From: a virus
Length of the DNA: 28,934 bases
IMG/VR virus record: IMGVR_UViG_3300042345_000683
Coordinates: 1-28,934 of that record
Reading direction: 5' to 3' (one strand)
Position 1 is the stretch's first letter, and the number at the start of each line of letters is the position of its first letter. The translations under genes were made by a program, and so were the position numbers. The notes beneath the pieces were generated by a model. The model had not been told where the DNA came from. It did not search any database and was given only the letters and a program-made list of their open reading frames with translations. Positions 2 to 4,595 of the stretch are shown one piece after another.

Positions 2-103
2 GGCTGGATTTTCCCAGGATTCATCCTTGGCTTTTGGCAGTGGGTGCTAATTGCCATCACTATTCGCATGCTTATTTGGCCCACTAATTACAACAACAAA
101 TGA
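2..103 (+). CDS. C-terminal end of a membrane protein (partial, cut by left edge)
   Basis: An open frame enters from the left edge and stops at TGA 101-103. It encodes 33 visible residues, which are strongly hydrophobic (for example FPGFILGFWQWVLIAI) and end in a short polar tail (NYNNK), so at least one membrane segment is visible. Its stop overlaps the thyX start in an ATGA arrangement (100-103), which usually means translational coupling and co-transcription. The family cannot be named from this fragment. The upstream start is outside the window. Confidence 0.6.
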   Translation, partial: GWIFPGFILGFWQWVLIAITIRMLIWPTNYNNK

Positions 104-819
104 CCCGCTCTCCACTCCAGGCTATTGATCCCCTCTGTGACGGTATTAGCTTTGTCAGGCTCATCGATTGGATGGGAACTTCGCTTGACATCGTTTGTGA
201 TGCGCGGCAAAGTTTCGATCAAGCCTCTCTTGAATGGACTGATAAAGATCAGAAACTTCTTAACTATTTGGTGAAGCATCAGCACACTAGCCCCTTCAGG
301 GGCGTTGTCACAAAATGGCAAGTGAAAGCTCCGCTGTTTATTGCTCGTCAATGGTGGAAGCATGTTATTGGTGGCACGTATGCCAATGACCAACTTGGCT
401 GGAATGAAAAAAGCTTCCGCTATTGCGAAGCCGACGACGAGACGTACTACATGCCTCGTGAATTTAGGCAGCAAAGCGCCAGCAACAAACAAGCTTCTGC
501 TGGCCCCTTAGAGCCCTCTATGAACAAAATGGCGATGATCGAATATGCCAAGGCGCTAGAGCAAGCTAAGCAGGCTTACAGGGCTCTTCTGACGCTAGGC
601 GTGAGCAAAGAGCAGGCTCGTGGAATCATGCCAATGAGCGCATATACGCAATTCACTTGGACCTGTAGCTTGCAAGCCCTTCTGCATTTCTTGTCATTGC
701 GCGACAAGCCAGATGCACAAGGCGAAATTCAATGCTACGCTCAAGCACTGGCCACACTGGCCCGTCCTCTCTTTAAAGAAGCCTTTCAAGCATTCGAGGA
801 AAATGGCAATGCCTTTTGA
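100..819 (+). CDS. thyX: FAD-dependent thymidylate synthase (ThyX)
   Basis: Makes dTMP from dUMP using methylene-tetrahydrofolate, NADPH and FAD. Phages use it to supply thymidylate for DNA replication. The 239 residues carry HTSPF at 62-66, an ARQWWKH segment at 82-88, NEKSFRY at 102-108, and a C-terminal ARGIMP / FTW / LHFLSLR / AQGEI series (173-210) matching the FAD- and dUMP-binding parts of the family. The signature differs from the textbook RHR-x7-S form: the second R of RHR is V89, and about 8 extra residues separate the H from NExSxRY. I believe phage ThyX variants like this exist, so activity remains plausible. The start overlaps the stop of the upstream membrane protein gene, and the end overlaps the DUF3310 gene. 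The three genes form a compact operon. Confidence 0.93.
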   Translation: MTRSPLQAIDPLCDGISFVRLIDWMGTSLDIVCDARQSFDQASLEWTDKDQKLLNYLVKHQHTSPFRGVVTKWQVKAPLFIARQWWKHVIGGTYANDQLGWNEKSFRYCEADDETYYMPREFRQQSASNKQASAGPLEPSMNKMAMIEYAKALEQAKQAYRALLTLGVSKEQARGIMPMSAYTQFTWTCSLQALLHFLSLRDKPDAQGEIQCYAQALATLARPLFKEAFQAFEENGNAF

Positions 820-1183
820 ACAAGCTCCTGAAGCTTTCCATCCAGTGGAACGCCCCAAGCACTATGCATTTGGTGGCATTGAAGCCATTGAAGGCATTGA
901 AGCCAGCATGAGCACTGAAGCCTATCGCGGCTTTTGTAAAGGCAACGTACTCAAGTATGTTTGGCGCTATGAAAGTAAAAATGGTCTTGAAGATTTAGAG
1001 AAAGCCAAGTGGTATCTCAATCAGCTTATTTTTGCGCTTGAAACTGATCAAGAGCGTGAAGCTCTAGCTGCCATTGAAAATAATGTGGACAATGGCTGTA
1101 AGGATGGCTTCTGTCCAATGCCAGGCATTCGCTACGATCTTCCTGGTAAGCAAGTGCTATTTGATCCCGTAGATAAAGCCTAA
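803..1183 (+). CDS. DUF3310 family protein (phage nucleotide-module associated)
   Basis: A 126-residue protein with the full DUF3310 pattern: RPKHY (17-21) followed by GGIEAIEGIEA, a YRGFCKGNVLKYVWRY block and GLEDLEKAKWYLNQLI. This small helical domain is common in phages. I associate it loosely with MazG-like nucleotide metabolism, but its biochemical role is not established. The start at 803 follows GAGG (796-799) closely. ATG 809 has more normal spacing (9 nt) and is an equally good start. A longer frame from 713 lies inside thyX and is unlikely. The gene overlaps thyX by 17 nt, so the two are co-translated. Its TAA (1181-1183) overlaps the stop of the convergent HNH gene by 4 nt, and its own terminator follows at 1208-1237. 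Confidence 0.85.
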   Translation: MAMPFEQAPEAFHPVERPKHYAFGGIEAIEGIEASMSTEAYRGFCKGNVLKYVWRYESKNGLEDLEKAKWYLNQLIFALETDQEREALAAIENNVDNGCKDGFCPMPGIRYDLPGKQVLFDPVDKA

Positions 1184-1662
1184 GCTGCCTGCCATTCTGT
1201 ATAACAAAAGCCCCCAGAAATGGGGGCTTCTTCTTTTGACGGTGGAATGTAATAATCACGCTCCTCTGCGAATGCTTCAATATCCTGCAAAGAAGTGTGG
1301 GCGCTAACAAAGCTATTGTGATGCACCCATGCAAGAAGAAGCTCTTCTCGCTTCTCAGTCCAGAAACGCTGTGGACGCCACCATTCAAAAATAGGCTCAG
1401 CTCCTTTTAGTAAATTACACGCTTGACAACTTGGCACTAAATTATATTTTGCAAAATGAGGCCCACCCTTGCTTTTAGGCACAATATGGTCAATCGTTAG
1501 CTTTTGATCCCATCGCCCGCAATATGCACAGGCGCATTGTCCAAGAGGACCACGTAGCGGATAGTCTTCAAAAATGCTCTTGCGAAATCTGCGTCTTGCG
1601 TCTCCAGGGCGAAGTTCAATGAGAGAATAAAGCAGCTCATCGGGACCATTCGCTCTTCGCAT
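1180..1662 (-). CDS. HNH endonuclease, McrA-like zinc type
   Basis: A 160-residue HNH nuclease. It shows CAYC (45-48), the DHIVPKSKGG core (D58-H59, the catalytic His position), N74 and CQAC (79-82). The two CxxC pairs form the structural zinc site of the beta-beta-alpha-metal fold. Such free-standing HNH genes in phages commonly act as homing endonucleases, and some assist packaging. It lies antisense between two plus-strand genes, so a homing role is more likely here. Its last roughly 16 codons run through the terminator hairpin of the thyX operon and its stop (1180-1182) overlaps the DUF3310 stop. This suggests the C-terminal tail was acquired from flanking DNA. No clear ribosome site was seen before ATG 1662. 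Confidence 0.88.
   Translation of the reverse strand: MRRANGPDELLYSLIELRPGDARRRFRKSIFEDYPLRGPLGQCACAYCGRWDQKLTIDHIVPKSKGGPHFAKYNLVPSCQACNLLKGAEPIFEWWRPQRFWTEKREELLLAWVHHNSFVSAHTSLQDIEAFAEERDYYIPPSKEEAPISGGFCYTEWQAA
1208..1237 (+). terminator. Rho-independent terminator of the thyX-DUF3310 operon
   Basis: A perfect 8-bp stem, AAGCCCCC (1208-1215) with GGGGGCTT (1222-1229), has a 6-nt loop and is followed by CTTCTTTT on the plus strand. It starts 25 nt after the DUF3310 stop. It lies wholly inside the 3' coding end of the convergent HNH gene. Confidence 0.85.
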
Positions 1663-1700
1663 GGCACTATTTACTTTTTCTGGAAATAATCTAACGGGCC

Positions 1701-1729
1701 TTTAGAGAGTAGTGCGCGTTCGCTAATAT
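1701..1729 (+). promoter_or_regulatory. Possible sigma70-type promoter before the holin-like gene
   Basis: TTTAGA (1701-1706) and TAATAT (1724-1729) are spaced by 17 bp. Each matches 4 of 6 consensus positions, and they sit just upstream of the gene starting at 1750. The A+T-rich stretch TATAAAAAT (1727-1735) overlaps. The position makes sense because the preceding operon is terminated at 1208-1237 and an antisense gene intervenes. The match is weak and the call rests largely on location. Confidence 0.3.
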
Positions 1730-1749
1730 AAAAATTGCAGGAAATCTCC

Positions 1750-1959
1750 ATGGACTCCTTTAAAGAAGGCATGGCCAATTTTGTGGCCACTATCACGGCT
1801 GGCATGCTTCTTTCCACTGGGGCCATGCTTATCACTGTTGGCAATCAACAAGCCAAAGTGGCAGTGCAAATTGAAAGCATTACGGAAAAGCTTAGTGCTT
1901 TAACGGATAAGATGAGTGACATTGAAACAAGAGTGCGTAGTTTAGAAATTAAGCGCTAG
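1750..1959 (+). CDS. Small one-TM membrane protein, holin-like
   Basis: A 69-residue protein: a short N-terminus, one hydrophobic segment (about residues 10-31, including FVATITAGMLLSTGAMLITV), and a C-terminal part with coiled-coil-like heptads (IESITEKLSALTDKM and IETRVRSLEI). ATG 1750 is chosen because AGGA (1739-1742) lies 7 nt upstream. A TTG at 1735 is possible but lacks a ribosome site. The size, single membrane segment and charged C-terminal tail, and its place upstream of the endolysin, fit a holin or lysis-accessory protein. No conserved family motif was recognised, so holin is an inference from context. Confidence 0.65.
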   Translation: MDSFKEGMANFVATITAGMLLSTGAMLITVGNQQAKVAVQIESITEKLSALTDKMSDIETRVRSLEIKR

Positions 1960-1988
1960 GCTTTAAGAAACCCTCCTGGGAGGAAATC

Positions 1989-2132
1989 ATGGGCGGCATT
2001 GAATGGTTTGTGGTTGGTGGCATTCTTGTTGCTGCTGCCGATCAAATTATCGAACGCACTCCTTATAAAGAAAACAACATCCTGCAATTGATCATGACTG
2101 GCCTTAAGGCAGTCTTCCGTGTGAAGGGCTGA
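1989..2132 (+). CDS. 47-residue membrane protein, possible lysis accessory
   Basis: ATG 1989 follows a strong ribosome site GGGAGGA (1978-1984). The frame encodes 47 residues ending at TGA 2130-2132. The N-terminal third is a short membrane segment (IEWFVVGGILVAAADQII). The rest is a basic amphipathic stretch ending in FRVKG. Small proteins of this look occur near lysis genes in cyanophages, as far as I recall. The site CCTCC-TG-GGAGG (1972-1983) could fold over the ribosome site and limit initiation. It lies between the holin-like gene and the endolysin, now separated from the latter by an antisense HNH gene. Confidence 0.6.
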   Translation: MGGIEWFVVGGILVAAADQIIERTPYKENNILQLIMTGLKAVFRVKG

Positions 2133-2136
2133 AAGA

Positions 2137-2694
2137 CTAGAGCCATTTCCAGTTTTCTCTGTTGATGATTTTTGCAATCGCGGTATCGCCTACGCTATAG
2201 CGAGCCGCGATTTCTTTGCACGTTAAGCCTTGCTCGTACAGCTCGCGAACTTCAATAACATCAGCCTCTTTTAGTTTGGCTTTGTGATGCTTTTCGCCAA
2301 TAATGATAGTGCCGTCCCTCCACTTGTCTTTAATATTTTGAGCGGGAGTTCCATAGTATAAATTTCCAACGCTATTGTCTTCTTTTCCATTGGGACCATG
2401 CAGAACCCATTTGTCCTTTGGCTTAGGCCCAAGAAACACCAATGCTACTAGTTGATGAATTCTAGTGTTTTTAAATTTATCACCCTCAGTTTGTGCTATT
2501 AAGACTTGCGCATAGCCGTCTTTGTCAAGTCCAGGTTTTAATATTTTCTCTGGCACAGTCCGATAGGCCCGTTTCCCTTGTCGGATGCCACAAGAGACGA
2601 CTCGTCTTAGGCTTTTGACACGCCCAAGATTGCTAACTTCGTAACGACCTTCAGCGCCTGGCACTGGGCGCCATTCTTCTGCGATAATGTCCAT
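2137..2694 (-). CDS. NUMOD4 / HNH homing endonuclease with C-terminal helix-turn-helix
   Basis: A 185-residue free-standing homing endonuclease. Domains in order: NUMOD4 (EEWRPVPG...YEVSNLGRVKSL, a DNA-recognition element), an HNH_3 nuclease core (RIHQLVALVFLG, then VLHGPNGKEDNSVGNLYYGT, with the usual nHidg block changed to LHGPNG), and a C-terminal helix-turn-helix (LTCKEIAARYSVGDTAIAKII). ATG 2694 matches the start of the paralog at 3730..4293 (both begin just before EEWRP). A longer frame from TTG 2754 would add 20 unrelated residues, and neither start has a good ribosome site. It lies antisense between the 47-residue membrane protein gene and the endolysin. Its stop is 4 nt from the stop of the former. 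Confidence 0.88.
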   Translation of the reverse strand: MDIIAEEWRPVPGAEGRYEVSNLGRVKSLRRVVSCGIRQGKRAYRTVPEKILKPGLDKDGYAQVLIAQTEGDKFKNTRIHQLVALVFLGPKPKDKWVLHGPNGKEDNSVGNLYYGTPAQNIKDKWRDGTIIIGEKHHKAKLKEADVIEVRELYEQGLTCKEIAARYSVGDTAIAKIINRENWKWL

Positions 2695-2794
2695 GGTTGC
2701 TCGATTAGGCGAGTGATCCACGGGTTCGGTGACTGCAATCACGCGGACCCACAAAAATCATAACAGCTAGACTTTATGAATAGAGGATCTAGCC

Positions 2795-3733
2795 ATGGAA
2801 ATCCCCAACACATGGAAAGGAGTTCAAGATCATGCCAAGAGAGTCGGAGCCAGATTCCCTGAACTAGTGGCAGCCCAATGGGCGCTTGAGAGTGGCTTTG
2901 GCAAGCATTTTTCTGGGCAATGGAATGCGTTCGGCCTAAAGGGGAGTGGCACCACTACTACCACGCAAGAATGGTACGACGGTCAATGGGTGACAATTAA
3001 GGCAGGGTTTATTGATTTCCCTAGCCTTGCTGCTTGCATTGAATATCTTGTAACCCGCTGGTACAAAGATTATCGTCAATTTAAGGGCGTGAACAATGCG
3101 CCTAATCGCTATGCGGCAGCACGCATGCTCAAGGAACAAAGCTATGCAACGGATCCCGATTATCCTGCAAAGCTTTCTAAACTCATGAAAGAATATGCCC
3201 CAGAAACCACGCAATTTACTATGATTGGCCCCAAGAAGCGTCCTCAAGACTTTGGCTTTAAACCTGGCGATTCGCATTTGGTTGTGAACGATGCAGTGGA
3301 AACCATGAAAGCTTTTTCCTATGAAGGAAAACTATTGTGGGAAATCCCTTGCCTTGCTCGTGGGCAATATAGTGACTTTGAATGGCGCATCCAAAACAGT
3401 GATTGTCCTCCAGGTCTGTACAAGCTAGGCACGATTTATCGAGATTATGACAGAGTAGGCGACAAACCTGCCTATGATCGTACGCTTATGGCTTATGGCT
3501 GGTACAGTTTTGACATGATTGATCTAGAGGGGCAAGAAAGGGATAATGGGCGTGCAGGGATCATGCTTCATGGCGGATCTAGTGCACTTGGGTGGCCAGG
3601 CGCGTGGGCTCCAAATCAAAAACTAATGCCAACAATGGGTTGTTGTCGTGCTCGTAATATTGATTTGCGCGATAAAATTTTGCCACTAACAGACAAGGGA
3701 GCTGTCTTTATTAGCGTTTTCCAAGAAGGTTAA
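2795..3733 (+). CDS. Endolysin: GH73-type glucosaminidase plus L,D-transpeptidase-like domain
   Basis: A 312-residue putative peptidoglycan hydrolase. Residues about 5-135 match the glucosaminidase (GH73) pattern: AAQWALESGFGKH with the likely catalytic Glu32, NAFGLKG, then GFIDFPSLAACIEYLVTRWY and YATDPDYPAKL. Residues about 155-305 resemble a YkuD-type L,D-transpeptidase: SHLVVND, CPPGLYKLG, IMLHGG (His259) and PTMGCCRARN (Cys283, Arg285). In that domain the family's S/T-H-G-C motif has Met281 instead of His, so transpeptidase activity is uncertain and the domain may only bind the wall. There is no signal peptide, so release would need a holin. AGAGGA lies about 8 nt before ATG 2795. The stop overlaps that of the convergent HNH gene by 4 nt. 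Confidence 0.8.
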   Translation: MEIPNTWKGVQDHAKRVGARFPELVAAQWALESGFGKHFSGQWNAFGLKGSGTTTTTQEWYDGQWVTIKAGFIDFPSLAACIEYLVTRWYKDYRQFKGVNNAPNRYAAARMLKEQSYATDPDYPAKLSKLMKEYAPETTQFTMIGPKKRPQDFGFKPGDSHLVVNDAVETMKAFSYEGKLLWEIPCLARGQYSDFEWRIQNSDCPPGLYKLGTIYRDYDRVGDKPAYDRTLMAYGWYSFDMIDLEGQERDNGRAGIMLHGGSSALGWPGAWAPNQKLMPTMGCCRARNIDLRDKILPLTDKGAVFISVFQEG

Positions 3734-4293
3734 ATATGCTTCCAACGTTCTCGCCTAATAATTTTCCCTATAGTCTGTATGTCAACCCCGTATTCATCTG
3801 CCAACTGCCTGCTATTTGATTTAGTTTTTGAGTAGCGAATATATTTAGCTCGTATTTCTAGTACTTGCTTCTCCGTGAGCCGAGCTTGGTGGTTCTTTGA
3901 GCCCCACAAAACGGTGCCGTGCCTATATTTGTCTTTTGTATTTTCCTTGGGCGTATCCCAGCGCAAATTATCAATTCGATTATTGAGCGAATTACCGTCA
4001 CAATGACAACACTCCATTCCGCTGGGGCGGAGACAGCCAAAAGCTTCGAGCACTAAATGCGCTACATATCGCGTATTATTTTTACTACCATCCTTTAATG
4101 GTAATCCAACCATCGCGTATTGTCCATACTTGTTCTTTCTGATACAAATAGACAGGATTTTGCCTTTAAACCTTTTGAGTAGACCATTCTTGTCTCGCGA
4201 AGCTCGGTCAAGGCTCCTGACCCGACCGAAGCTGCTCACCTCGTAAAGCCCCTCGTAACCAACGATGGGGCGCCATTCTTCTATCATGGACAT
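3730..4293 (-). CDS. NUMOD4 / HNH homing endonuclease, paralog of the one at 2137..2694
   Basis: A 187-residue protein with NUMOD4 at the N-terminus (EEWRPIVGYEGLYEVSSFGRVRSL), an HNH_3 core (VAHLVLEAFG, then CCHCDGNSLNNRIDNLRWDT) and a C-terminal helix-turn-helix (SRQLADEYGVDIQTIGKII). Unlike its paralog it keeps the standard nHxdGN block. It has a strong ribosome site (AAAGGAGGT, 7 nt before ATG 4293), so it appears translated independently. The two paralogs share domain order and the final R-x-x-W-K block but differ widely, which suggests separate arrivals rather than a recent duplication. Its stop (3730-3732) overlaps the endolysin stop. It separates that gene from the terminator at 4320-4350. 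Confidence 0.9.
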   Translation of the reverse strand: MSMIEEWRPIVGYEGLYEVSSFGRVRSLDRASRDKNGLLKRFKGKILSICIRKNKYGQYAMVGLPLKDGSKNNTRYVAHLVLEAFGCLRPSGMECCHCDGNSLNNRIDNLRWDTPKENTKDKYRHGTVLWGSKNHQARLTEKQVLEIRAKYIRYSKTKSNSRQLADEYGVDIQTIGKIIRRERWKHI

Positions 4294-4319
4294 GATGCCT
4301 ACCTCCTTTAGGTATCCGT

Positions 4320-4350
4320 GGGCAGGGAATTGCAGTTCCGCTGCCCTTTT
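4320..4350 (+). terminator. Rho-independent terminator, probably for the endolysin transcript
   Basis: GGGCAG (4320-4325) pairs with CTGCCC (4341-4346), extended inwards by GGAA/TTCC with one bulged G, and is followed by TTTT AT. The U-run is only on the plus strand, so it acts on rightward transcripts. The only plus-strand gene it can serve is the endolysin, whose stop lies 587 nt upstream across the antisense HNH gene. Confidence 0.75.
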
Positions 4351-4385
4351 ATCTTAGACGATGCTCAAAGAGAAAATGAAGACCT

Positions 4386-4595
4386 TTAAAGAAAACCGCT
4401 CTCTTTCCAGTTTAGAAGCGCCCTAAGGCGCTTCCATTTAGCTAGCTCCTTCTCGTGATAATCTTCCCAGCTAGCAATGGCATCGCTTAGCCCCTTGGCG
4501 GCAATAGAAGGATCATCATCAGTGAGAAGCTCTTGAAGAGCGTCAGAGATGTGATCTACTTGCTGTTTATACCACTGGTCCTTAAAAGCATCCAT
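4386..4595 (-). CDS. Hypothetical 69-residue protein, last gene of the late region
   Basis: A small soluble, helical, acidic-then-basic protein (for example VDHISDALQELLTDDDPSIAAKGLSDAIASWEDYHEKEL). No family was recognised. It follows the 407-residue structural protein by 33 nt on the same strand and probably shares its transcript. The nearest ribosome-like motif (AAGGAG) lies about 15 nt before ATG 4595, farther than usual. A hairpin-forming repeat GAAGCGCC / GGCGCTTC (4415-4422, 4427-4434) lies near its 3' end but lacks a U-run. Confidence 0.6.
   Translation of the reverse strand: MDAFKDQWYKQQVDHISDALQELLTDDDPSIAAKGLSDAIASWEDYHEKELAKWKRLRALLNWKESGFL

Follow-up and report, generated by a model that had tools for sequence, protein, structure and literature searches.

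In the cyanophage-like virus contig IMGVR_UViG_3300042345_000683, a record of 28,934 bases which we call the window, three HNH genes (H1, H2 and H3) lie on the minus strand near the left end, each with its stop codon against that of a plus-strand gene. This one geometry probably covers two different things: H2 and H3 would be mobile homing genes settled behind stop codons, and H1 an old, fixed gene with a terminator in its tail. What is new here is the terminator-like hairpin that the H1 tail encodes behind the stop of the DUF3310 gene. The order at the left end is ThyX, DUF3310, H1, a 69-amino-acid (69-aa) gene, a 47-aa gene, H2, a lysin gene and H3, followed by a minus-strand module that opens with another 69-aa gene and continues with a 407-aa gene. 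The closest named relative in a nucleotide search of a phage collection is Synechococcus phage S-CBS4, at 74% identity and 39% coverage of the first 6 kilobases (kb). The stop-to-stop placement given in a preliminary description of this DNA is real and was checked in the sequence. The final bases are 1183 for DUF3310 and 1180 for H1, 2132 for the 47-codon gene and 2137 for H2, with 2133–2136 left between them, and 3733 for the lysin and 3730 for H3; the first and third pairs overlap by 4 nucleotides (4 nt). That all three genes lie inside a plus-strand module is true of H1 and H2, but H3 stands at the module's edge, the next gene (4386–4595) being on the minus strand. An HNH catalytic domain scores above the profile cut-off in H1 (PF01844) and H3 (HNH_3), and H2 passes for NUMOD4 only.

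The H1 gene and the hairpin in its tail

H1 (1180–1662, minus strand) encodes 160 amino acids matching PF01844 (6.5e-11) and also HNH_5. It shares the tetramer CTAA (1180–1183) with the stop of its convergent partner, the DUF3310 gene (809–1183, plus strand; PF11753, 4.1e-23), which follows the gene for a ThyX-type thymidylate synthase (100–819, plus strand; PF02511, 4.7e-40). A terminator scan marks a plus-strand site at 1208–1229, starting 25 nt past the DUF3310 stop and inside H1; the predicted hairpin with its T-rich tail spans 1208–1239, within the 3′ coding end of the gene. Since shuffled sequence gave 4.0 sites of this kind where the 4 kb scanned gave seven, the single hit means little. 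The same feature is present, though, in most of 66 distinct H1 tails, despite last residues that vary widely between clades. Under one fixed criterion (a GC stem, a short loop and a run of T), a candidate terminator on the host strand was found in 40 of 42 de-duplicated tails, compared with 0/84 windows from the H1 body, 1/210 block shuffles (which move two-base blocks and are not strict dinucleotide shuffles) and 1/68 sequences from other HNH families. Synonymous recoding of the tails gave the feature in 346 of 8400 cases (4%). Twelve distinct pairs of stem arms occur among the tails, and the stem is therefore kept while its sequence changes. In the two clades whose tails could be aligned (15 and 12 sequences), synonymous difference (pS) was 0.15 and 0.30 over the last 20 codons, against about 0.5–0.8 in mid-gene. 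These data suggest that the predicted terminator serves the upstream ThyX/DUF3310 operon.

Several observations weigh against so simple an account. The H1 strand gives a hit too, in 37/42 tails; there the hairpin would terminate transcription just before the H1 stop, and it may be bidirectional. Synonymous change is likewise low (0.21) over the first 20 H1 codons, which a terminator does not explain. The tails of H3 and H2 have no such terminator (0/20 and 0/7), and with 1/32 in genes of the S-CRES1 gp74 type and 0/5 in those of the S-CBS4 gp017 type (gp17 type below) we rejected the idea that every antisense HNH tail holds one. As a separate observation, the reduced synonymous change at the start of the gene (1540–1662 region) is nearly as marked as that in the tail in two clades, and perhaps reflects a regulatory element belonging either to H1 or to the operon downstream. 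When the alignment of this conserved 5′ end was inspected for a promoter, a TA..AT box was seen ahead of the 69-aa gene (1750–1959, plus strand; no Pfam match, an open reading frame kept in relatives) and no convincing -35 element, and we claim no promoter there.

For comparison across relatives, loci were collected by IMG/VR scans with DUF3310 and lysin queries (best 80 of 587 and best 80 of 163), giving 150 locus identifiers which include overlapping stretches of the same contigs. In all interval counts given here identical intervals were merged and near-identical ones kept separate, and the counts take no account of relatedness (G002 and G014, for example, are close kin). H1 was present in 86/86 distinct intervals from DUF3310 to the 69-aa gene, S-CBS4 included; the stop-to-stop distance was -4 in 77 of them and -8 in 5, with 0, 2, 362 and 882 once each. 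Seventeen longer relatives of 43–80 kb were searched as whole records with the PF13392 and PF01844 profiles, and all 17 have a PF01844 match (the orientation of their H1 genes was taken from the interval and survey tables). No empty H1 site was found among the 86 comparable intervals and the 17 longer relatives. H1 is accordingly not classed as a mobile homing gene, for although it has an HNH domain it shows no presence/absence polymorphism.

Occupied, empty and scar-like alleles at the H2 and H3 sites

At the other two sites, alleles with and without the nuclease gene were found. H2 (2137–2694, minus strand) encodes 185 amino acids with a NUMOD4 match (3.3e-17) and an HNH_3 score of 21.0 bits, below the cut-off of 24.8. 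Its start is most likely the ATG at 2694 rather than the TTG at 2754, up to which the frame is open. It was present in 5 of 81 distinct intervals between the 47-aa gene (1989–2132, plus strand; no Pfam match, kept in relatives) and the lysin gene (2795–3733, plus strand; glucosaminidase domain PF01832, 3.6e-17), whose start adjoins the insert, and absent from the remaining 76. An empty site such as that of L005 reads TGA|AGCC|ATG, that is, the stop of the 47-aa gene, four bases and the lysin start; in occupied alleles the insert sits between the TGA and AGCC-ATG. Empty alleles and junctions thus bear out, for H2 as for H3 below, the proposal that the insert starts right at the stop of its plus-strand neighbour.

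In two of the three H2-bearing relatives compared, a near-identical tract surrounds the gene and extends 100–150 nt into the lysin. In 50-base bins, identity to L008 is 98–100% from about 2100 to 2900, with 74–94% on the left and 84–86% at 2950–3050, and identity to L026 is 94–100% over 2150–2950, with 82–96% on the left and about 80–82% on the right. These tracts fit co-conversion flanking a cleavage site close to where the lysin begins, as expected if H2 homes. Two comparisons argue the other way: L088, whose H2 is 86–100% identical by bin, has no sharp tract, and L008 is 100% identical again at 3050–3150, to the right of its tract. Lysins beside H2 genes of 92–100% identity start MEIPNTWK, which none of the 76 H2-free alleles do, and a further relative of H2 at 70% identity occupies the same site with an 8-nt gap beside a lysin starting MNSWALIQ (L212/L313, one genome). 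H2 thus looks like a recent and mobile gene settled directly behind a stop codon, and would encode an active nuclease. We also note that at 2795–2950 the lysin N-termini diverge sharply between H2-bearing and H2-free relatives, the remainder of the protein being more similar.

H3 (3730–4293, minus strand; 187 amino acids; NUMOD4 4.1e-16, HNH_3 1.3e-7) shares TTAA (3730–3733) with the lysin stop. An H3-family gene, at 46–100% identity to H3, occupies 17 of 63 distinct intervals from the lysin to the 69-aa gene of the minus-strand module, 16 of them at -4; four loci counted here as lacking H3 (L033, L036, L054 and L092) carry a remnant of it. All 17 have a conserved 5′ cassette (4294–4372, minus strand) comprising a ribosome-binding site and a hairpin, GGGCAG..CTGCCC (4320–4346). 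The 28-base pattern of this cassette was found in 30 IMG/VR contigs; in 29 of them a lysin matches at the site, and the remaining contig, L161, stops within H3. The 19 distinct proteins selected by the cassette have near-identical starts (MSM/IIEEWRP) and at least four types of 3′ end. Just 5′ of the ribosome-binding site the hairpin region (4294–4346) is near-invariant, being kept down to 46–50% protein identity, and its loop is conserved as well, which a terminator alone would not require. The fold z-score of the hairpin is a weak -1.5 on the H3 strand (15/200 shuffles were as good) and -2.5 on the opposite strand.

The 19 H3-site proteins correspond nearly, not exactly, to 19 distinct HNH-bearing lysin contexts, the status of a context being set by the cassette pattern, so that an HNH gene without the cassette would count as HNH-free. 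In 17 of these 19 the lysin stop is YTAR and the HNH frame ends there, whereas YTAR occurs in 17 of 49 contexts without an HNH gene or scar (Fisher p 8e-5, relatedness ignored). In the two whose lysin ends in TGA (L149/L183 and L155), the HNH frame reads 46 and 26 nt into antisense lysin sequence. One clean comparison sets an empty GGCTAA-TC/TT-ATTCGCC against GGCTAA-[HNH]-ATTCGCC in L060, with both flanks of the insert matching, and by eye the right border of the insert meets the start of a further plus-strand gene in 17/19 contexts. Six contexts hold remnant-like HNH sequence: some 45 nt from the 3′ end of H3 survive in L036, L054 and L092, some 20 nt (reading ..WKYVA) in L081 and L082, and about 64 codons in L197. 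These short HNH-like ends are plausibly deletion scars; together with the empty and occupied alleles, they indicate both gain and loss at the H3 site.

The preliminary description also held that such insertion leaves the host gene and its 5′ signals intact, which is correct only in part. In 25 of the 49 contexts without HNH gene or scar, the lysin stop overlaps, as ATGA, the start of another plus-strand frame at least 80 codons long, and an H3 insert parts the two. Less favourable to homing of H3, the last 40 nt of the lysin show no clear co-conversion tract (72% identity between contexts of the same type, 64% between different types and 59% between contexts with and without HNH). As to which partner supplied the shared stop, alleles that match the ATGA empties on the right flank may have received their YTAR together with the insert. 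A target duplication at the right border (CCAAGAAGGATGA, L098/L182) is clear in one allele only and is not claimed.

Explanations for the shared geometry

On the reading we favour, H2 and H3 belong among the free-standing, site-specific HNH homing genes; having probably landed in antisense orientation behind stops, they are still gained and lost. The form of the contacts would follow from the stop codon itself. YTAR is a stop on both strands, and an antisense frame butted against a host stop could end on the host's own stop codon; the exact 4-nt overlap would arise because the frame is placed on a host stop that is YTAR and ends there. With TGA as the host stop, the frame of the nuclease gene runs on into antisense host sequence. 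The tetramer is present at 1180 (CTAA) and 3730 (TTAA), and H2 does not overlap its neighbour.

A plainer explanation is that the overlaps are the usual compaction of convergent genes, in which the HNH identity of one partner is irrelevant. The same YTAR tetramers make up the standard convergent 4-nt overlap, a known consequence of stop codons read backwards (excerpts of PMC2174442, where 1890 convergent overlaps are tabulated, 1218 of them of at least 5 nt), and in four distinct H3-free intervals the lysin and the 69-aa minus-strand gene overlap by 4 nt with no HNH gene between them. Among 163 de-duplicated HNH-free convergent pairs from the fetched loci, 66 overlap, 38 of these at one repeated distance of -35, and 9 lie at exactly -4; at this background rate the chance that at least two of three contacts fall at -4 is about 0.01, by arithmetic done after the fact. 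In the wider HNH survey (146 entries after duplicate removal, each labelled by its best query), H1 is at exactly -4 in 35/42 cases and convergent H3 in 18/20, both exceeding the background, whereas the gp74 type (1/32) and gp17 type (0/5) do not; the expected excess of 4-nt overlaps thus holds for two families and not for HNH genes at large. At the lysin site several distinct HNH 3′ ends stop at the same host base and the two TGA alleles run on, and the overlap is therefore tied to the insertion boundary, which leads us to consider mere compaction unlikely.

The preliminary description had suggested a general preference of HNH genes for entry in reverse orientation exactly behind a stop codon. 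All three HNH genes of the window conform, and in the wider survey nested antisense placement is in the majority for H1 (42/42), H3 (16/21), the gp74 type (28/37) and the gp17 type (5/8), although not for H2 (6/14). Among the 17 longer relatives, 44 HNH places were found (23 with PF13392, 21 with PF01844), of which 24 are nested antisense: 17 H1 genes, five at the lysin stop, one H2 and one gp017, in four families. Discounting H1, 20 of 27 are not nested antisense. S-CBS4 gp069 is co-oriented with its neighbours, and none of the 19 regions inspected has opposite-strand genes on both sides; seven of these 19 face a convergent gene at the HNH 3′ end, none at -4. HNH types from Mycobacterium, Pseudomonas and Staphylococcus are never nested antisense (0/24), the gp17 type leaves gaps of 34–68 nt in 4/5 cases, the gp74 type overlaps by 8–38 nt in 28 of 32 convergent cases, and the excerpted account of T4 gives a single antisense case, segD (PMC2988022). 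A general insertion rule is already largely refuted in this lineage, and we think it very improbable overall. Frames in these comparisons were called with a codon-trained caller and compared by eye with annotated L002, L200, L201, L203 and L199; as the caller overlooks some genes, among them those for HNH proteins in L203 and L199, HNH frames were placed by tblastn.

For H1 the competing view makes it a phage enzyme, functional in its own right and never a homing gene, its fixation having nothing to do with the terminator. Over codons 1–120 nonsynonymous divergence (dN) is 0.04–0.18 against a synonymous divergence (dS) of 0.86–1.68 in seven pairs, indicating purifying selection on the body of the gene; it is present in every relative examined, and relatives at 34–40% identity occur in cyanophage records (best 40 of 169). 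This view leaves unexplained why the tail, rather than an intergenic stretch, holds the terminator, yet it is compatible with that arrangement, and we give it a substantial chance of being right, if somewhat short of even. If, as we think probable, the variable tail of H1 became the terminator of the ThyX/DUF3310 operon, deletion of H1 would remove that terminator, and the embedded hairpin may be the reason why H1 stays fixed while H2 and H3 get lost. A broader proposal, which we make only tentatively and hold rather more likely to be wrong than right, is that antisense HNH genes persist through shared host end-signals: cost-free sharing of a YTAR stop would come first, and takeover of a terminator would then lock the nuclease in, H2 and H3 representing the early mobile stage and H1 the locked-in one.

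Relation to known systems

The seg and mob genes of T4-like phages are alike in being small nucleases between conserved phage genes with host signals inside them: host-gene promoters lie within segG, and mobE and segF carry terminators at their 5′ ends (excerpts of PMC2988022). A stable hairpin just 5′ of the ribosome-binding site of seg43(25), reported in the same excerpts, resembles that of H3. The T4 endonuclease genes differ in being co-oriented with their neighbours, except for segD, whereas the three genes here are antisense and stop-to-stop, and the T4 terminators lie at endonuclease 5′ ends, whereas the predicted one of H1 lies at the 3′ end and would be read from the other strand. Rho-independent terminators are used by one gene in 19/58 E. 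coli convergent overlaps (excerpts of PMC2174442); unlike in those overlaps, one partner here is a gene that is gained and lost (H3) or a fixed HNH gene (H1). PMC10448857 deals with nuclease genes at exchange boundaries, and the words orientation and antisense are absent from its main text. Among the matches listed for antisense or stop-adjacent homing genes, for convergent overlaps and terminators, and for S-CBS4, no title or abstract opening describes the present arrangement.

The empty, occupied and scar-like alleles form one natural series in which to test how a selfish nuclease may be sited harmlessly beside useful genes, and the series may show how a removable parasite becomes a fixed gene through takeover of a host transcription signal. 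As an idea about retention this goes beyond the embedded promoters of T4, because it offers a testable predicted terminator with constraint at the nucleotide level.

In S-CBS4 (NC_016766), H1 has its ortholog in gp066 (63% over 135 residues), which is antisense and has the hairpin in its tail but lies 133 nt from the stop of the preceding gene. A further antisense HNH gene, gp017, has a NUMOD4 match, and S-CBS4 differs from the window in that neither the H2 site nor the position immediately after the lysin is occupied by an HNH gene. By tblastn, relatives of H3 are found at the lysin A locus of two Mycobacterium phages: in Coco12 (L198 2248–3985) a two-piece lysin A encloses the antisense gp30, and Mandlovu gp31 is co-oriented, between lysin A and lysin B. 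To the right of H3, the plus-strand gene found after the lysin or H3 in many relatives is absent from the window, and at 4375–4420 a short start-like stretch is left. A second antisense HNH family, of the S-CRES1 gp74 type, lies beside a tail-assembly-like gene in L203 (2965–3387) and in L248–L286, and most of the nearer relatives of gp74 point towards a gene that is similar, at its end, to the one for the S-CRES1 tail assembly protein.

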